This document shows, in pieces, positions 17,202 through 22,410 of a DNA stretch of 64,000 nt. The position numbers and the translations under genes were made by a program. Source of the stretch: an uncultured Gammaproteobacteria bacterium (GTDB taxonomy: Bacteria > Pseudomonadota > Gammaproteobacteria > UBA6429 > Thiohalophilaceae). The stretch is taken from positions 1 to 64,000 of the forward strand of contig CAJYAN010000011.1 of the NCBI GenBank assembly GCA_913064945.1, in the 5' to 3' direction. The notes below the pieces were generated by a model, which worked only from the letters and a program-made list of their open reading frames with translations, had not been told where the DNA came from and searched no databases. The stretch's first letter is position 1. Every line of letters begins with the position of its first letter.

Positions 17202-17212
17202 TGCAGACTGCA
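17202..17212. promoter_or_regulatory. Putative enhancer site upstream of soxY (TGCA-N3-TGCA)
   Basis: TGCAGACTGCA lies about 95 bases before the inferred soxY start point. The same palindrome pattern occurs upstream of the DsrE-like gene and twice upstream of the sensor kinase. It is proposed as a binding site for the NtrC-type regulator at 18970-20340. Confidence 0.5.
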
Positions 17213-17275: not shown

Positions 17276-17291
17276 TGGTATAAGAATTGCT
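17276..17291 (+). promoter_or_regulatory. Sigma-54 (-24/-12) promoter for soxYZ
   Basis: TGGTATAAGAATTGCT has GG and GC separated by exactly ten bases and a perfect TTGCT -12 element. The -24 element (TGGTATA) keeps the essential TGG. The inferred start point is near 17302, and soxY starts at 17340. An NtrC-type activator gene lies 1.6 kb away. Confidence 0.6.
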
Positions 17292-17339: not shown

Positions 17340-17810
17340 ATGAACCACCAACGTCGTACCTTATTAAAGTCCACTGTGGCGACTGGCACCATTGCCATTG
17401 CCATCAGTGCCGGCTTATTAACCCCACAGGCCGTTCTAGCCGCCTGGCCCAAGGCCGCCTTTAACGCCAAATCAGTCGGCGATGCACTCAATACCCTGAT
17501 GGGTGCCAAAGACGCTGTTGCTAGCAAGGACATCCAGGTTGACGCGCCGGACATCGCCGAGAACGGAGCCGTTGTATCGATTAGCATCAAGACCTCGATT
17601 GCCAATGCCGAGCAGATTTCTATCCTGGTAAAAGAAAACAGCTTGCCGTTAGCCGCCAGTTATGTCCTCTCACCGGATACCGAGGGTTATATCACTGGCC
17701 GCATCAAAATGGCGAAGACGTCTGACATTATTGCCGTCGTCAAGGCGGGGAACAAACTGTATATGGCCAAGAAATCCGTAAAAGTCACCCTGGGTGGCTG
17801 TGGCGGTTAA
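17340..17810 (+). CDS. soxY: Thiosulfate oxidation carrier protein SoxY
   Basis: The 156-residue periplasmic sulfur carrier begins with a Tat-type signal (RRTLLKS, hydrophobic region, cleavage near AVLA-AW). It ends in the swinging-arm motif GGCGG, with Cys154 as the covalent sulfur attachment site. The mature domain has the SoxY beta-sandwich pattern (AENGAVVSISIKTSI ... ISILVKENSLPLAASYVL). SoxY pairs with SoxZ, 37 bases downstream. The start ATG has a GAGGAG site. No soxXA, soxB or soxCD is near, so the carrier must work with partners encoded elsewhere or with another sulfur pathway. A sigma-54 promoter precedes it. Confidence 0.96.
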   Translation: MNHQRRTLLKSTVATGTIAIAISAGLLTPQAVLAAWPKAAFNAKSVGDALNTLMGAKDAVASKDIQVDAPDIAENGAVVSISIKTSIANAEQISILVKENSLPLAASYVLSPDTEGYITGRIKMAKTSDIIAVVKAGNKLYMAKKSVKVTLGGCGG

Positions 17811-17847: not shown

Positions 17848-18165
17848 ATGAGTCAAAAGAAAATGAAGATTCGCGCCTGGATGGACGATGGCCGTGCCAA
17901 TGTAAAGGCCATCATTTTTCATCCAATGGAAACAGGCCTGCGCAAAGACAAGGCCAGCGGTAAAATGATCCCCGCTCACTATATTACCGAGGTCGTCTGT
18001 ACGCATAATGGCAAATCAGTCCTCACCTGTTTATGGGGGCCACGAGTATCAAAGAACCCCTTTATCTCCTTTCGTTTCAGGAATGCCAAAGCTGGTGATA
18101 AACTGGAAATTAGCTGGGTCGATAATTTAGGTAATAGTGACAAGTCTGAGGCCAGTATTAGCTAA
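17848..18165 (+). CDS. soxZ: Thiosulfate oxidation carrier complex protein SoxZ
   Basis: The 105-residue partner of SoxY shows the SoxZ pattern VKAIIFHPMETGLRKDKASGKMIPAH at its start, then ITEVVCTHNGKSVL, and the KAGDKLEISWVDNLGN segment near the end. It has no signal peptide, as usual; it crosses the membrane folded with SoxY through the Tat system. It follows soxY by 37 bases and is followed by a strong terminator, so soxYZ is a two-gene unit. Confidence 0.96.
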   Translation: MSQKKMKIRAWMDDGRANVKAIIFHPMETGLRKDKASGKMIPAHYITEVVCTHNGKSVLTCLWGPRVSKNPFISFRFRNAKAGDKLEISWVDNLGNSDKSEASIS

Positions 18166-18192: not shown

Positions 18193-18225
18193 AAACGCGG
18201 CTCACTTCGAGCCGCGTTTTTTTTT
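18193..18225 (+). terminator. Rho-independent terminator of soxYZ
   Basis: An 11-bp stem (AAACGCGGCTC with GAGCCGCGTTT, five-base loop) followed by a run of T begins 27 bases after the soxZ stop. Confidence 0.9.
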
Positions 18226-18238
18226 GCGATAAGCCTTA

Positions 18239-18271
18239 ATAAAAAAGCGGGCACAATCGGTGCCCGCTTTT
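18239..18271 (-). terminator. Rho-independent terminator of the DsrE-like gene
   Basis: A stem GCGGGCAC/GTGCCCGC with a five-base loop is followed by a T-run on the minus strand. It ends the convergent transcript 22 bases after the stop codon. Confidence 0.85.
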
Positions 18272-18292: not shown

Positions 18293-18763
18293 TCAGGGCT
18301 TGATGTACAAATAGCCCTGCTGTTCCAGATCAGCAATCTGTGCCACACCTGAAGGCACAATTTCTGCGTTCACATTAATTTTGTTCTTATCAATTTTCTT
18401 ACCACGAATAGTATTGGCGCAAATCTGGAAACGTACCCCGCGATTGGCCAGCGAGGCAATTTGATCACCAAAGTCATACACCTTGCCGGTCTTGGGATTT
18501 TTCTTACCCATGGAACCATCAACCAGTGCGAAGGCACCTGTGCTGTGAGTGACAATAGTCATATTAATATTTTTTTCACCAACGGCATTGAGATGATTCT
18601 TGGCGTTGCGAAATGCCCCCGTTGCTTTGTTAATGTCATTGACGTGATAGACAACCTTTTGCTTGTTATAACCATTTTCCGCTTTTTCCATTGTGCTACA
18701 AGCGGCGGTTACCAAAATGAACGGCAGCATGGTTGCCATCAATGCTAGTTTACGTAACTTCAT
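18293..18763 (-). CDS. DsrE/DsrF-like family lipoprotein (putative periplasmic sulfur-relay protein)
   Basis: The 156-residue product starts with a lipoprotein-like signal (KLALMATMLPFILVTAACS, candidate lipid-attached Cys22). A DsrE/DsrF-type domain follows: KVVYHVNDINKATGAFRNAKN, then INMTIVTHSTGAFALVDG and VRFQICANTIRG, with the family's candidate active Cys115. Most DsrE proteins are cytoplasmic sulfur carriers, so export and lipidation put this one on the same side as SoxYZ. The ATG at 18763 has a perfect GGAGGAG site, which excludes the longer upstream frame. It converges with soxYZ, lies downstream of the two-component system, and has its own sigma-54 promoter. Its sulfur-transfer role is inferred. 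Confidence 0.85.
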   Translation of the reverse strand: MKLRKLALMATMLPFILVTAACSTMEKAENGYNKQKVVYHVNDINKATGAFRNAKNHLNAVGEKNINMTIVTHSTGAFALVDGSMGKKNPKTGKVYDFGDQIASLANRGVRFQICANTIRGKKIDKNKINVNAEIVPSGVAQIADLEQQGYLYIKP

Positions 18764-18829: not shown

Positions 18830-18845
18830 AGCAAATATCATTCCA
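18830..18845 (-). promoter_or_regulatory. Sigma-54 (-24/-12) promoter for the DsrE-like gene
   Basis: On the minus strand TGGAATGATATTTGCT has TGG, then ten bases between GG and GC, and a perfect TTGCT. The inferred start point is near 18819, about 55 bases before the ATG. Confidence 0.65.
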
Positions 18846-18923: not shown

Positions 18924-18950
18924 TTTTTCGCTGCAATCTGCAACGAAAAA
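18924..18950. promoter_or_regulatory. Palindromic enhancer-like site upstream of the DsrE-like gene
   Basis: Arms TTTTTCGCTGCA and TGCAACGAAAAA match at 11 of 12 positions around a three-base centre, giving the core TGCAATCTGCA (18932-18942). It is centred about 118 bases before the inferred sigma-54 start point, a normal distance for an enhancer-binding protein. It also lies just after the regulator's stop codon; with no T-run it is unlikely to be only a terminator. Confidence 0.55.
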
Positions 18951-18969: not shown

Positions 18970-20340
18970 TTACACCATTTCAGATTGATCTTCATAACGC
19001 CGTAATTTCCGCCACAAGGTTGTCTTGTCTATTCCCAACAACCTTGCTGCCTGTGTTTTTTTACCATTACAGCAACGCAGTACATGACTAATATATTCCT
19101 GTTCCAACTGTTCCAGTGGCATGAAATCGTCATCCGAAAATTGGATGGGAAGCGCCAGAGCAGCGACCGATTCATCGTAGTGGGCATTCCAGTGTAGTAT
19201 AGGTCCATCCGCCAGAATCACACTGCGTTCAATCGTATTACGCAATTCGCGTATATTTCCAGGCCAGGCGGCTTCACAGAGATGTCGTAAAGAAGTGGTG
19301 TCAAATCCTTGCACACGACGAGTGTACTGAGTGGCGAATTCCTGCACATAGTGCTCCACCAGTGCGGGGATGTCCTCCCGACGCTCGGCCAGGCTTGGAA
19401 CACGAATGGTGACGACATTCAAGCGATGATAAAAATCATGACGGAACTTTTTTTCTTCAACCAGGCTGTCCAGATCCTGATTGCTGGCGACAATTATACG
19501 CACATCAATCGGAATCGTTGTCGTCCCGCCGACACGCGTAACGCTTTTGCTCTCAATTGCCCGCATAAGTTTTATTTGCATCGTATCCGAGATATTACAA
19601 ATCTCATCCAGAAACAGCGTACCACCATCTGCCTGCTCCATCAGACCATATTTACGCTGGGTCGCACCAGTGAAGGCACCCTTTTCATGTCCAAATAATT
19701 CACTTTCCAGTAAGGTATCGCTCAGTGCGCCACAGTCAATGGCAACAAAAGGAGCTTCTTTTCTTGGGCTATAATCATGTAGTGCACGCGCAACCAGTTC
19801 CTTACCTGTCCCCGATTCACCAGAGATAATGGCGTTGCAACTTACCTCAGCAAGTTTCTCGATGGTTGTGAATAACGTCTTCATGACAGGCGTATCACCA
19901 ATCATCCCGTAATGGTTCCGTTTACTGCCAAGCCGTTTCTTTAAAAGACGATTCTCATTTTTTAGTCGCACCCCCTTCATGGTGCGATCAAGTCGCAGAC
20001 GTAGCTCCTCAAAGTCAAAGGGTTTTTTGATAAAGTCGGTGGCACCGCGACGCATGGCCTCGACAGCATTTTCAACCGAAGAATACCCCGTCATGACCAG
20101 CACCGGTACTTCCGTATCGACCTCGCGAATATTGCTCAGCAAATCAAAGCCATTCATACCGGGCATGCGTAAATCAGTAATCAATATATCGGCACCATCG
20201 GCCTGAAATGCCTTGAGACAACTTTCGGCATCCTGAAATACTTCACAACGATACTTTGCATGATCACAGTTCCGCTTCATAATCTTGCCGGTCACGAGAT
20301 CATCATCGACAAACATAATACGAATCGGTTTAGATGACAT
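18970..20340 (-). CDS. Sigma-54-dependent response regulator (NtrC type)
   Basis: The 456-residue regulator has three domains. The receiver has an acidic pocket VDDD (11-14) and phosphorylation site Asp56 in DILITDLRMP. The AAA+ domain has Walker A GESGTGKE, the sigma-54-contacting GAFTGA loop in FGHEKGAFTGATQRKYG, and Walker B GGTLFLDEI. The C-terminal Fis-type helix-turn-helix contains KKTQAARLLGIDKTTLWRKL. The ATG at 20340 overlaps the kinase stop by 11 bases, so the two are translationally coupled. The intact GAFTGA means it should activate sigma-54 promoters, and two candidates lie in the same island, at soxY and at the DsrE-like gene. Confidence 0.95.
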   Translation of the reverse strand: MSSKPIRIMFVDDDLVTGKIMKRNCDHAKYRCEVFQDAESCLKAFQADGADILITDLRMPGMNGFDLLSNIREVDTEVPVLVMTGYSSVENAVEAMRRGATDFIKKPFDFEELRLRLDRTMKGVRLKNENRLLKKRLGSKRNHYGMIGDTPVMKTLFTTIEKLAEVSCNAIISGESGTGKELVARALHDYSPRKEAPFVAIDCGALSDTLLESELFGHEKGAFTGATQRKYGLMEQADGGTLFLDEICNISDTMQIKLMRAIESKSVTRVGGTTTIPIDVRIIVASNQDLDSLVEEKKFRHDFYHRLNVVTIRVPSLAERREDIPALVEHYVQEFATQYTRRVQGFDTTSLRHLCEAAWPGNIRELRNTIERSVILADGPILHWNAHYDESVAALALPIQFSDDDFMPLEQLEQEYISHVLRCCNGKKTQAARLLGIDKTTLWRKLRRYEDQSEMV

Positions 20341-22297
20341 TTGCTGCCTCCAAAACAGATGTTTCTGAAATGTTCTGATTAGCCTTAACAGGCAACAGCA
20401 TTCTGACACATACCCCGCCAGCGTTATTGTTGCCCAGGTGAATCGTGCCGCCATGATCTTTCACAATGCCATAGCTCACTGACAAACCCAGCCCGGTCCC
20501 TTCACCCTCTTCTTTGGTGGTAAAAAACGGGTCGAATATCCTGGCCAAATGTTCTTCAGCAATCCCCATGCCCTCATCCTGTATTTCAATATGTAACTGT
20601 TTATTAATATCATCAGAATGAGCATCCAGCCTAATGGTGCTGCCTTCTTTTGATGCCTGTATGGCGTTAAATAGAATATTGACTAACACCTGCTGCAACA
20701 ATTTGTCATCACCGTGCAGCATGAGTGATTTCTGTATAGATGATTGCAGCTCAATATTTTTCATTTCAAAACGGTGATGCAGTAACGACAGGGTTTCTTC
20801 AATGAGACAGCTCATATCAAATAGTCGATGACAGGGCTTGGTTTCACGTGCAAAACTTAAAATACCCTGCACGATTCCCGCACAACGCTCACCCTCGTTT
20901 TTTAATAGCTTGATGTCGCTGAGAAGTTGCTCATCCTTATCTTTGACAGAGTCTTCGATCAACGCCGCCAATGACATAATGTTCATCAAAGGATTATTGA
21001 TCTCATGGCCGATGCCCGCCGCCATTTGACCGACCGAAGCAAGCCGCTCCGATTGCTGCGCGGCCTTTTCCGCCATATCGCGCTCTGACTCAGCCTGCTG
21101 CAGCTTTCGGGTAAGGTAATTGAAGGCCTTCCCTGCCAGACCAATTTCATCGCGGCGTTTTCCGGTATAGCGCACTGTGGCGTCGCCATCTGCATAACGC
21201 GTGATCATCTCAGCCAGTGCATGCACTGGCCGGGTTAACTGGTATGCCGCCCACACGGCCAATAGCAAACTGATCACCAGTAATATGCCCATTAACCACC
21301 ATATCGAGTGGCGCATTTTATTAATGGGGGAGAATATGACCTGTGAATCTGCTTCGACAATCAATAACCACTTCGTGGCTCGATCTTTAAATGGCGATAT
21401 TTTACGGAAGAACAGCATGCGTCCGTTATCACGATATAAGGCACCATGTTCCTGTACTTCAGATACCTGTCTCCATTCGGCCGGATTAAGCTCATTAGAC
21501 AGACGATATTGAGAATGCATCTGGTCGGCAAAGCGTCGACGTGAATCAGGATGATAGAGATAGATACCATCTCGCGGTGTCCCCGGATTCAGTTCGACAA
21601 TATAGGCGGTACCGGGATAGCCCTGTAGTGATGCCTCCATGGCCGCATCTACCCGTGAGCCCCACATATTGACCGTTAGCAAGCCTTCAATATGATCCAG
21701 TTCGTCTTTCACAATGACCGAATACCGAACCATGGCCGGGCAAAAGTCTGCCCTACCGGTCACCTGTCCAAGTTCAAAATCTGACATCGCCACATCGGTG
21801 CGGTCTGACATGGCGATTTTAAAGAACCGTTTAGACGATTGATCGGCAATATAAAGCCGTGAGGCCGTCGCATCTTCAAGCTTGGGCTCAATGGGCTTAC
21901 CTTCTTTGATCTTGACCAGAGTCTTACCACTCGGGTCGATAAAGCGTAATGCCTGGATACTGCCGACGACGTGCTGGTAGTTGAGAAAAAACTGTTCCAG
22001 GTCATCGGCACTTTGTTTGTATTCGAGATTGGAAATCTTCCCGTCGGCATACGCCATTGAGGCGGCCGCAAATTGCTTCACGGCAGGGACCCGTGAGAGC
22101 CCCTTGGCGATGGATTTTTGATTTTGCAGGATAAGGTTCAGTTCGGCCGCAATCTTGTCCAGCGTGCCATGCAATTCCTGCTCAGTACGACTACGGACCT
22201 CATTTTCCATACGCTCAACCACCCCAAAGAGGAGTATCAGCAAAGGAATCGCTGTGAGCAGGCTTAAGGAAATGAAAAATTTATGTCGTAGCTGCAT
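20330..22297 (-). CDS. Membrane sensor histidine kinase with periplasmic sensor domain
   Basis: The 655-residue protein has a first membrane helix (about 7-27), a large periplasmic region (about 30-325) with the layout of a double-Cache sensor (SIQALRFIDPSGKTLVKI ... DRTDVAMSDFELG), and a second membrane helix (about 331-353). A HAMP domain, then HisKA with phospho-accepting His431 in GIGHEINNPL, and an ATPase domain (N box NILFNAIQAS, DEGMGIA, TGLGLSVSYG) follow. Three or more Cys lie in the sensor and kinase parts, including Cys186 in the sensor. The ligand is unknown; the location beside soxYZ suggests a sulfur compound or a redox cue, by inference only. Confidence 0.93.
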   Translation of the reverse strand: MQLRHKFFISLSLLTAIPLLILLFGVVERMENEVRSRTEQELHGTLDKIAAELNLILQNQKSIAKGLSRVPAVKQFAAASMAYADGKISNLEYKQSADDLEQFFLNYQHVVGSIQALRFIDPSGKTLVKIKEGKPIEPKLEDATASRLYIADQSSKRFFKIAMSDRTDVAMSDFELGQVTGRADFCPAMVRYSVIVKDELDHIEGLLTVNMWGSRVDAAMEASLQGYPGTAYIVELNPGTPRDGIYLYHPDSRRRFADQMHSQYRLSNELNPAEWRQVSEVQEHGALYRDNGRMLFFRKISPFKDRATKWLLIVEADSQVIFSPINKMRHSIWWLMGILLVISLLLAVWAAYQLTRPVHALAEMITRYADGDATVRYTGKRRDEIGLAGKAFNYLTRKLQQAESERDMAEKAAQQSERLASVGQMAAGIGHEINNPLMNIMSLAALIEDSVKDKDEQLLSDIKLLKNEGERCAGIVQGILSFARETKPCHRLFDMSCLIEETLSLLHHRFEMKNIELQSSIQKSLMLHGDDKLLQQVLVNILFNAIQASKEGSTIRLDAHSDDINKQLHIEIQDEGMGIAEEHLARIFDPFFTTKEEGEGTGLGLSVSYGIVKDHGGTIHLGNNNAGGVCVRMLLPVKANQNISETSVLEAANVI

Positions 22298-22322: not shown

Positions 22323-22410
22323 TGCAATATGCAGACTAACAAATACGAATTGGCTAGTCTATATCCACTCTACATATAAGTTTTTAATTATATACTAATT
22401 GCATAATGCA
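22323..22410. promoter_or_regulatory. Two TGCA-N3-TGCA sites in the kinase upstream region
   Basis: TGCAATATGCA (22323-22333) and TGCATAATGCA (22400-22410) lie in the 132-base gap before the kinase gene. The first is one base from the core at 18932-18942. A weak sigma-54-like element (TGG-N9-GC type, 22351-22368, minus strand) lies between them. They suggest autoregulation of the two-component system. Confidence 0.4.

Follow-up and report, generated by a model that had tools for sequence, protein, structure and literature searches.

A predicted exported DsrE-family protein beside soxYZ, with candidate sigma54-type sites in common and an adjoining two-component system

The characterised DsrE and TusD proteins are cytoplasmic. 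DsrE of DsrEFH and TusD of TusBCD reside in the cytoplasm as parts of heterohexamers, and each uses a single reactive cysteine to act as a sulfur carrier (PMC3397948). DsrE3A of Metallosphaera cuprina binds thiosulfate on a cysteine and passes it to TusA; it is encoded beside Hdr-like genes and has TusA as its working partner, and the abstract of that paper mentions neither an export signal nor a two-component system (PMC4175335). Two questions concern the periplasmic side of sulfur metabolism, as sulfur leaves SoxYZ 'by unknown means' and the sensing of external sulfur is 'poorly understood' (PMC11582611). Two-component sensors have been described for thiosulfate (ThsS/ThsR) and tetrathionate (TtrS/TtrR) (PMC5408782). 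In Acidithiobacillus caldus the sigma54-dependent two-component system TspS/TspR lies upstream of the sox cluster and has the activator site TGTCCCAAATGGGACA; the model of this system given in that review contains no exported DsrE (PMC6335251). Our search of largely open-access literature for an exported, periplasmic or lipoprotein DsrE found none.

Here we describe a dsrE gene located in a stretch of 64,000 nucleotides, referred to below as the window, whose product carries a predicted export signal. The features of the locus are collected in Table 1. Genes for a sensor histidine kinase and a response regulator (HK-RR) lie upstream of dsrE on the same strand, and soxYZ lies downstream in convergent orientation. 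This arrangement differs from that of DsrEFH in two respects: the gene setting of dsrAB, dsrF and dsrH is replaced by a position after HK-RR, and the cytoplasmic location is replaced, judging from the N-terminus, by export. It resembles TspS/TspR, by description, in that a sigma54-dependent two-component system adjoins sox genes. The sigma54 two-component system next to dsrE does not appear in the preliminary description of this DNA; it probably controls both dsrE and soxYZ, and with it in place sensing becomes a serious alternative to the plain sulfur acceptor or donor role considered there. Starting the response regulator at the upstream ATG would make its open reading frame overlap that of the kinase by about 125 nt, and the internal start MSSKPIRIMFVDDD looks more probable.

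Table 1. Coordinates of genes and candidate regulatory sites in the window, and of anti-sigma-like DsrE fusions in other loci
Feature	Coordinates	Strand	Basis or remarks
Candidate activator site TGCAGACTGCA, soxY upstream	17202..17212	(+)	Pattern search
Predicted sigma54-type promoter TGGTATAAGAATTGCT, soxY upstream	17276..17291	(+)	Pattern search
soxY	17340..17810	(+)	Tat-like signal, C-terminal GGCGG; TIGR04488 (SoxY_true) 2e-46, 158 against 125 bits
soxZ	17848..18165	(+)	TIGR04490 (SoxZ_true) 7e-38, 128 against 76 bits
Two perfect hairpins with T/A runs	18193..18271		In the gap where soxZ and dsrE converge; probable terminators
dsrE, exported DsrE-family protein, 156 aa	18293..18763	(-)	Predicted signal 1-21, lipobox Cys22, DsrE domain about 35-156, Cys115
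Predicted sigma54-type promoter TGGAATGATATTTGCT	18830..18845	(-)	82 nt upstream of dsrE start
Palindrome TGCAGATTGCA, candidate activator site, dsrE upstream	18932..18942	(-)	97 nt before -24 element
NtrC-type response regulator	18970..20454	(-)	Pfam: receiver, sigma54 activation, Fis-type HTH
Sensor histidine kinase	20330..22297	(-)	dCache-type periplasmic domain, Cys186; Pfam, AlphaFold model, Foldseek
Candidate activator site TGCA-N3-TGCA, kinase gene upstream	22323..22333	(-)	Pattern search
Second candidate activator site TGCA-N3-TGCA, kinase gene upstream	22400..22410	(-)	Pattern search
Anti-sigma-like DsrE fusion	L110:7162-7884		About 240 aa
Anti-sigma-like DsrE fusion	L095:4541-5266		About 240 aa
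Anti-sigma-like DsrE fusion	L103:8745-9473	(-)	About 240 aa
Anti-sigma-like DsrE fusion	L094:3896-4633	(-)	About 240 aa
Anti-sigma-like DsrE fusion	L106:966-1691	(-)	About 240 aa

Export signals, fold, cysteine conservation, gene order and common sites were computed. The comparison set comprised 81 sequences, that of the window and those of 80 further loci, the relatives being mostly metagenome-assembled with start codons set by rule. The window gene starts with an ATG preceded by a GGAGGAG Shine-Dalgarno sequence. A longer reading of 220 aa is unlikely, as its added N-terminus would cover the sigma54-type promoter at 18830-18845. Assignment of the product to the DsrE family, as first proposed, is borne out by a match to Pfam DsrE (PF02635; E=1.3e-8, 35.5 bits against a curated cut-off of 22.7) and by an AlphaFold model that displays the DsrE fold (56 input sequences, mean pLDDT 90); a scan against NCBIfam returned nothing above cut-offs. 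Comparison of the model with solved structures gave Z-scores of 13-19, with ST0148 (19.0) and MTH1491 (18.6) ahead of YchN (15.0), TusD (13.7) and DsrE of DsrEFH (13.0). MTH1491 and ST0148, two solved DsrE-like proteins of unknown function, are also the closest solved relatives in profile comparison (E=1.3e-15 and 5e-12, respectively), and their chains of 113 and 108 aa begin at about the start of the window DsrE domain. The window protein thus has its fold in common with the DsrEFH and TusBCD subunits, whereas its export signal and its occurrence alone set it apart from them.

Cys115 lies within VRFQICANTIRG, at the end of the strand formed by residues 111-115 and directly before a helix in the model. 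Together with Cys22 it is the only cysteine of the mature window protein. The preliminary description had named it as a candidate active residue whose conservation among homologues would be telling, and we find it retained in 81/81 sequences, in most of which it is the sole cysteine of the mature protein. It aligns with a cysteine in both MTH1491 and ST0148. These observations make Cys115 the candidate reactive cysteine typical of the DsrE/DsrF-like family.

The N-terminus reads as an export signal in all 81 sequences, as judged from sequence, and most of these signals terminate in a standard SPase I site (for example TAQA or SAYA). The lipobox is distributed differently. By the general lipobox rule, the MKLRKLALMATMLPFILVTAAC-S segment of the window protein conforms at Cys22 (V-T-A-A-C, with Thr at -3), and SPase I cleavage between VTA and AC is a conceivable alternative. 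A lipobox is found in 26 of the 81 sequences, including that of the window, and is missing from the other 55. About six changes of the lipobox state are needed on an 80-row tree, and the window is the sole lipobox member of a well supported clade of 35 rows with otherwise ordinary Sec signals. The lipobox of the window is a recent acquisition of its own lineage. Given these counts and the tree placement, export is a family trait and the lipid anchor a variable add-on, which rules out lipoprotein status as a trait of the family. Of the earlier suggestion of an exported lipoprotein, the export part therefore stands throughout the set, and the lipoprotein part applies to the window protein, which is probably lipid-anchored in the source species. 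Among Proteobacteria, predicted export of this type of DsrE is widespread.

The placement beside SoxYZ is more than local. A close dsrE orthologue is present in 27 of 37 genomes of the window's family, and in every family genome whose contig is long enough, 24 in all, dsrE and soxY are no more than 3 kb apart. Across the full set, a sigma54-type response regulator immediately precedes dsrE in 47/81 loci, of which 29 also contain soxYZ. In 12 loci HK-RR-dsrE occurs with no soxYZ nearby, which indicates that dsrE is tied more tightly to the sensor than to SoxYZ. Exported dsrE-type genes are present in several copies per genome, and many of the distant ones have neither HK-RR nor soxYZ beside them.

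Analysis of the upstream regions revealed a small set of recurrent sites. A sigma54 promoter of the form TGG-N8-TTGC is located 58-121 nt before dsrE in 33/49 loci with an upstream response regulator (mean of 0.8 and maximum of 4 in shuffles), and the palindrome TGCA-N3-TGCA lies upstream of the dsrE promoter in 41/49, mostly at 95-101 nt (maximum of 4 in shuffles). Sequence clusters defined these 49 loci, among them a few TtrS-like ones, whereas similarity to the regulator of the window defined the 47 given above. The palindrome also precedes soxY in 19/25 loci, in 10/25 with a sigma54 promoter, and the kinase gene in 22/44. None was found upstream of soxZ, nusA, infB or truB in the compared loci. 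The four matches among 26 rimP upstream regions may reflect those loci that have soxY as a divergent neighbour of rimP. The window as a whole contains four palindromes, all at the dsrE/soxYZ/kinase locus; since 21/100 shuffles reach four in 64 kb, their number alone is no excess and it is their placement that carries weight. A promoter pattern with N9 spacing had no matches, the sigma54 promoters being obtained with N8, and a sigma70 scan gave no excess over shuffles. The TspR site (TGTCCC-N4-GGGACA, with up to 2 mismatches) had 0 matches in the window.

A search of the regulon by pattern only, in which the palindrome had to be followed by TGG-N8-TTGC at 58-88 nt, gave three matches in the 3.2-Mb genome, one preceding soxY, one preceding dsrE and the third at C16:181-270, against 0 for the reversed control pattern. 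This third match comes after a paralogous HK-RR pair and immediately precedes a second soxY, which is truncated by the contig end. When 58 genomes were searched, the combined motif had 65 matches and the control 0. Of the matches, 38 immediately precede dsrE (15) or soxY (23), and at least 3 others lie in front of a soxY truncated at a contig end. The genome contains rpoN. From the position of the sites, and from the paralogous modules that have the same site, we infer that the response regulator of the window binds TGCA-N3-TGCA. The sigma54-type sites that dsrE and soxYZ have in common form a small, conserved set. The contig fragment C16:1-3589 (L115) holds the second HK-RR, the palindrome, the sigma54 promoter and the second soxY, which encodes a Tat-like signal and was missed by a whole-genome search with the SoxY profile.

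The most economical function for the exported DsrE, and the one that we favour with modest confidence, is that of a periplasmic one-cysteine sulfur carrier in the thiosulfate step, co-induced with SoxYZ by the adjoining sigma54 system. The protein would be exported and face the periplasm, probably with a lipid anchor in the source species, and its single conserved Cys115 would take on a sulfur species, either sulfane sulfur or thiosulfate. On detecting a reduced sulfur compound on the periplasmic side, the histidine kinase would activate the adjoining response regulator, which would act through TGCA-N3-TGCA on the sigma54 promoters of dsrE and soxYZ and probably also on its own kinase gene. 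Induced DsrE would then serve as sulfur acceptor or donor in the same periplasmic step as SoxYZ. Both the co-regulation and the sensing in this scheme we infer from the sites and the layout of the genes. The genome also encodes SoxB, SoxC and DsrA, with dsrE- and dsrF-like genes adjoining dsrA on contig C2. The SoxC match rules out an absence of SoxCD as the reason for an additional acceptor and counts against the carrier reading, as SoxYZ-bound sulfur could be oxidised without one. With these enzymes and the DsrE-family genes beside DsrA, an additional carrier may not be needed physiologically.

The main rival is a sensory role, and the two roles are not mutually exclusive. Exported DsrE may be a periplasmic signalling module whose charged cysteine reports sulfane sulfur to a transmembrane regulator. 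Three kinds of regulator would qualify: dCache kinases whose cysteine matches, as in the window, kinases resembling TtrS, and ECF anti-sigma factors to which a DsrE domain is fused. We hold this as a tentative possibility, an estimate that covers all forms of signalling by exported DsrE, also signalling by a DsrE that is a sulfur carrier as well. The particular form in which the recipient of the signal is the dCache domain of the window kinase, perhaps through exchange between sulfur-loaded DsrE and Cys186, we consider less likely than not. The periplasmic part of the kinase is a double Cache according to Pfam (below the curated cut-off), an AlphaFold model (pLDDT 90) and Foldseek. Of 41 readable dsrE-linked kinases, 40 have a particular sensor-domain cysteine (Cys186 of the window kinase, in D-F-C-P-A-M), versus 0 of 9 sister kinases, which come from HK-RR modules followed by soxY, or by the same candidate activator site, but by no dsrE. 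However, the two kinase groups appear to form separate clades, which makes this contrast a single evolutionary event, and in L068, the exception, dsrE is kept although the kinase lacks the cysteine; this dsrE also lacks both regulatory sites. Signalling is further favoured by the 12 HK-RR-dsrE loci without soxYZ, by the TtrS-like kinases that adjoin exported dsrE in Alphaproteobacteria, and by an ECF-linked, anti-sigma-like partner that contains a DsrE domain with the same cysteine. Against this, a gene beside its own regulator may be a mere target of it, and the fusions come from a different branch of the family.

Two further readings depart from both roles. That DsrE is an envelope thiol protein for polysulfide, metal or oxidant detoxification, merely co-induced by thiosulfate and moving no sulfur in energy metabolism, we consider improbable; it would suit the single cysteine, the several copies per genome and the arsenite response of DsrE/F-like genes in Thioalkalivibrio (PMC6620896), but leaves the conserved soxYZ coupling and the near-exclusive common motif unexplained. 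A cytoplasmic DsrE like those of DsrEFH and TusBCD, with an N-terminus that is hydrophobic by chance, would agree with the location of the characterised DsrE and TusD proteins (PMC3397948). This is very hard to reconcile with signal-like N-termini of two types in 81/81 sequences, and the genome already has separate, adjacent dsrE- and dsrF-like genes just beyond dsrA on C2.

The preferred carrier reading and its sensory rival both make the locus a defined candidate for the questions of how sulfur leaves SoxYZ and how it is sensed, as it offers one cysteine, a candidate promoter and a candidate regulator. A named and deposited relative is Thiohalophilus thiocyanatoxydans DSM 16326 (L054).

Other regulators were found beside exported dsrE. 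In five alphaproteobacterial loci (L092, L098, L105, L108 and L111), three of which contain soxYZ, exported dsrE adjoins a regulator whose sensor domain is Phosphonate-bd. Three of the five were scanned against NCBIfam and are TtrS-like kinases, with TtrS as the best model (E between about 1e-104 and 1e-112, short of the equivalog cut-off). The one response regulator scanned from these loci is FixJ/TtrR-like, and the neighbour in L105 is a one-piece regulator of Phosphonate-bd and LuxR type. These TtrS-like neighbours combine a Phosphonate-bd sensor with a FixJ-type regulator, in contrast to the dCache sensor and NtrC-type regulator of the window.

An ECF sigma gene adjoins exported dsrE in seven gammaproteobacterial loci. 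In six of these seven a similarity search found another protein, which is anti-sigma-like at its N-terminus, crosses the membrane once and has a DsrE domain at its C-terminus; L094 has one as well. Further such fusions were found in L170-L189, often with an exported dsrE nearby. Assignment of the C-terminal domain is based on similarity to MTH1491 (E=6.8e-11, hhalign probability 97), as Pfam and NCBIfam scans of the fusions gave none above cut-off and one sub-threshold DsrE match. The N-terminus is termed anti-sigma-like because of gene overlap, layout and motif; a profile match is not the basis of the label. The DsrE cysteine is kept in all five aligned fusions and in the further readable ones, and an ECF gene is directly upstream in 20/20 of the best fusion loci inspected. 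Matches to the fusion protein occur in 98/369 genomes of the class (E<=1e-10), many of them full-length and others covering the DsrE part only. A search of largely open-access literature for a DsrE-anti-sigma fusion found none, and no such link appears in the titles and abstracts of papers that name both 'anti-sigma factor' and DsrE. The occurrence of these fusions in many gammaproteobacterial genomes suggests sulfur sensing by a fold so far described as a cytoplasmic carrier. With membrane-bound regulators that have a built-in DsrE domain present in many other bacteria, it is suggested that cells use this domain outside the cytoplasm to handle, and perhaps sense, sulfur.

The genome of the window encodes a second exported DsrE-family protein of 150 aa on contig C6 (224953-225369; L002:1468-1920). 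It has an ordinary Sec-like signal and a cysteine in FDACGNTM, and is 31% identical to the window protein; paralogues resembling it are present in many relatives. A clade of exported DsrE proteins from L058, L059, L067 and L072 has two additional cysteines right behind the signal (C-P-x-G...N-G-Y-C), which may form a disulfide.
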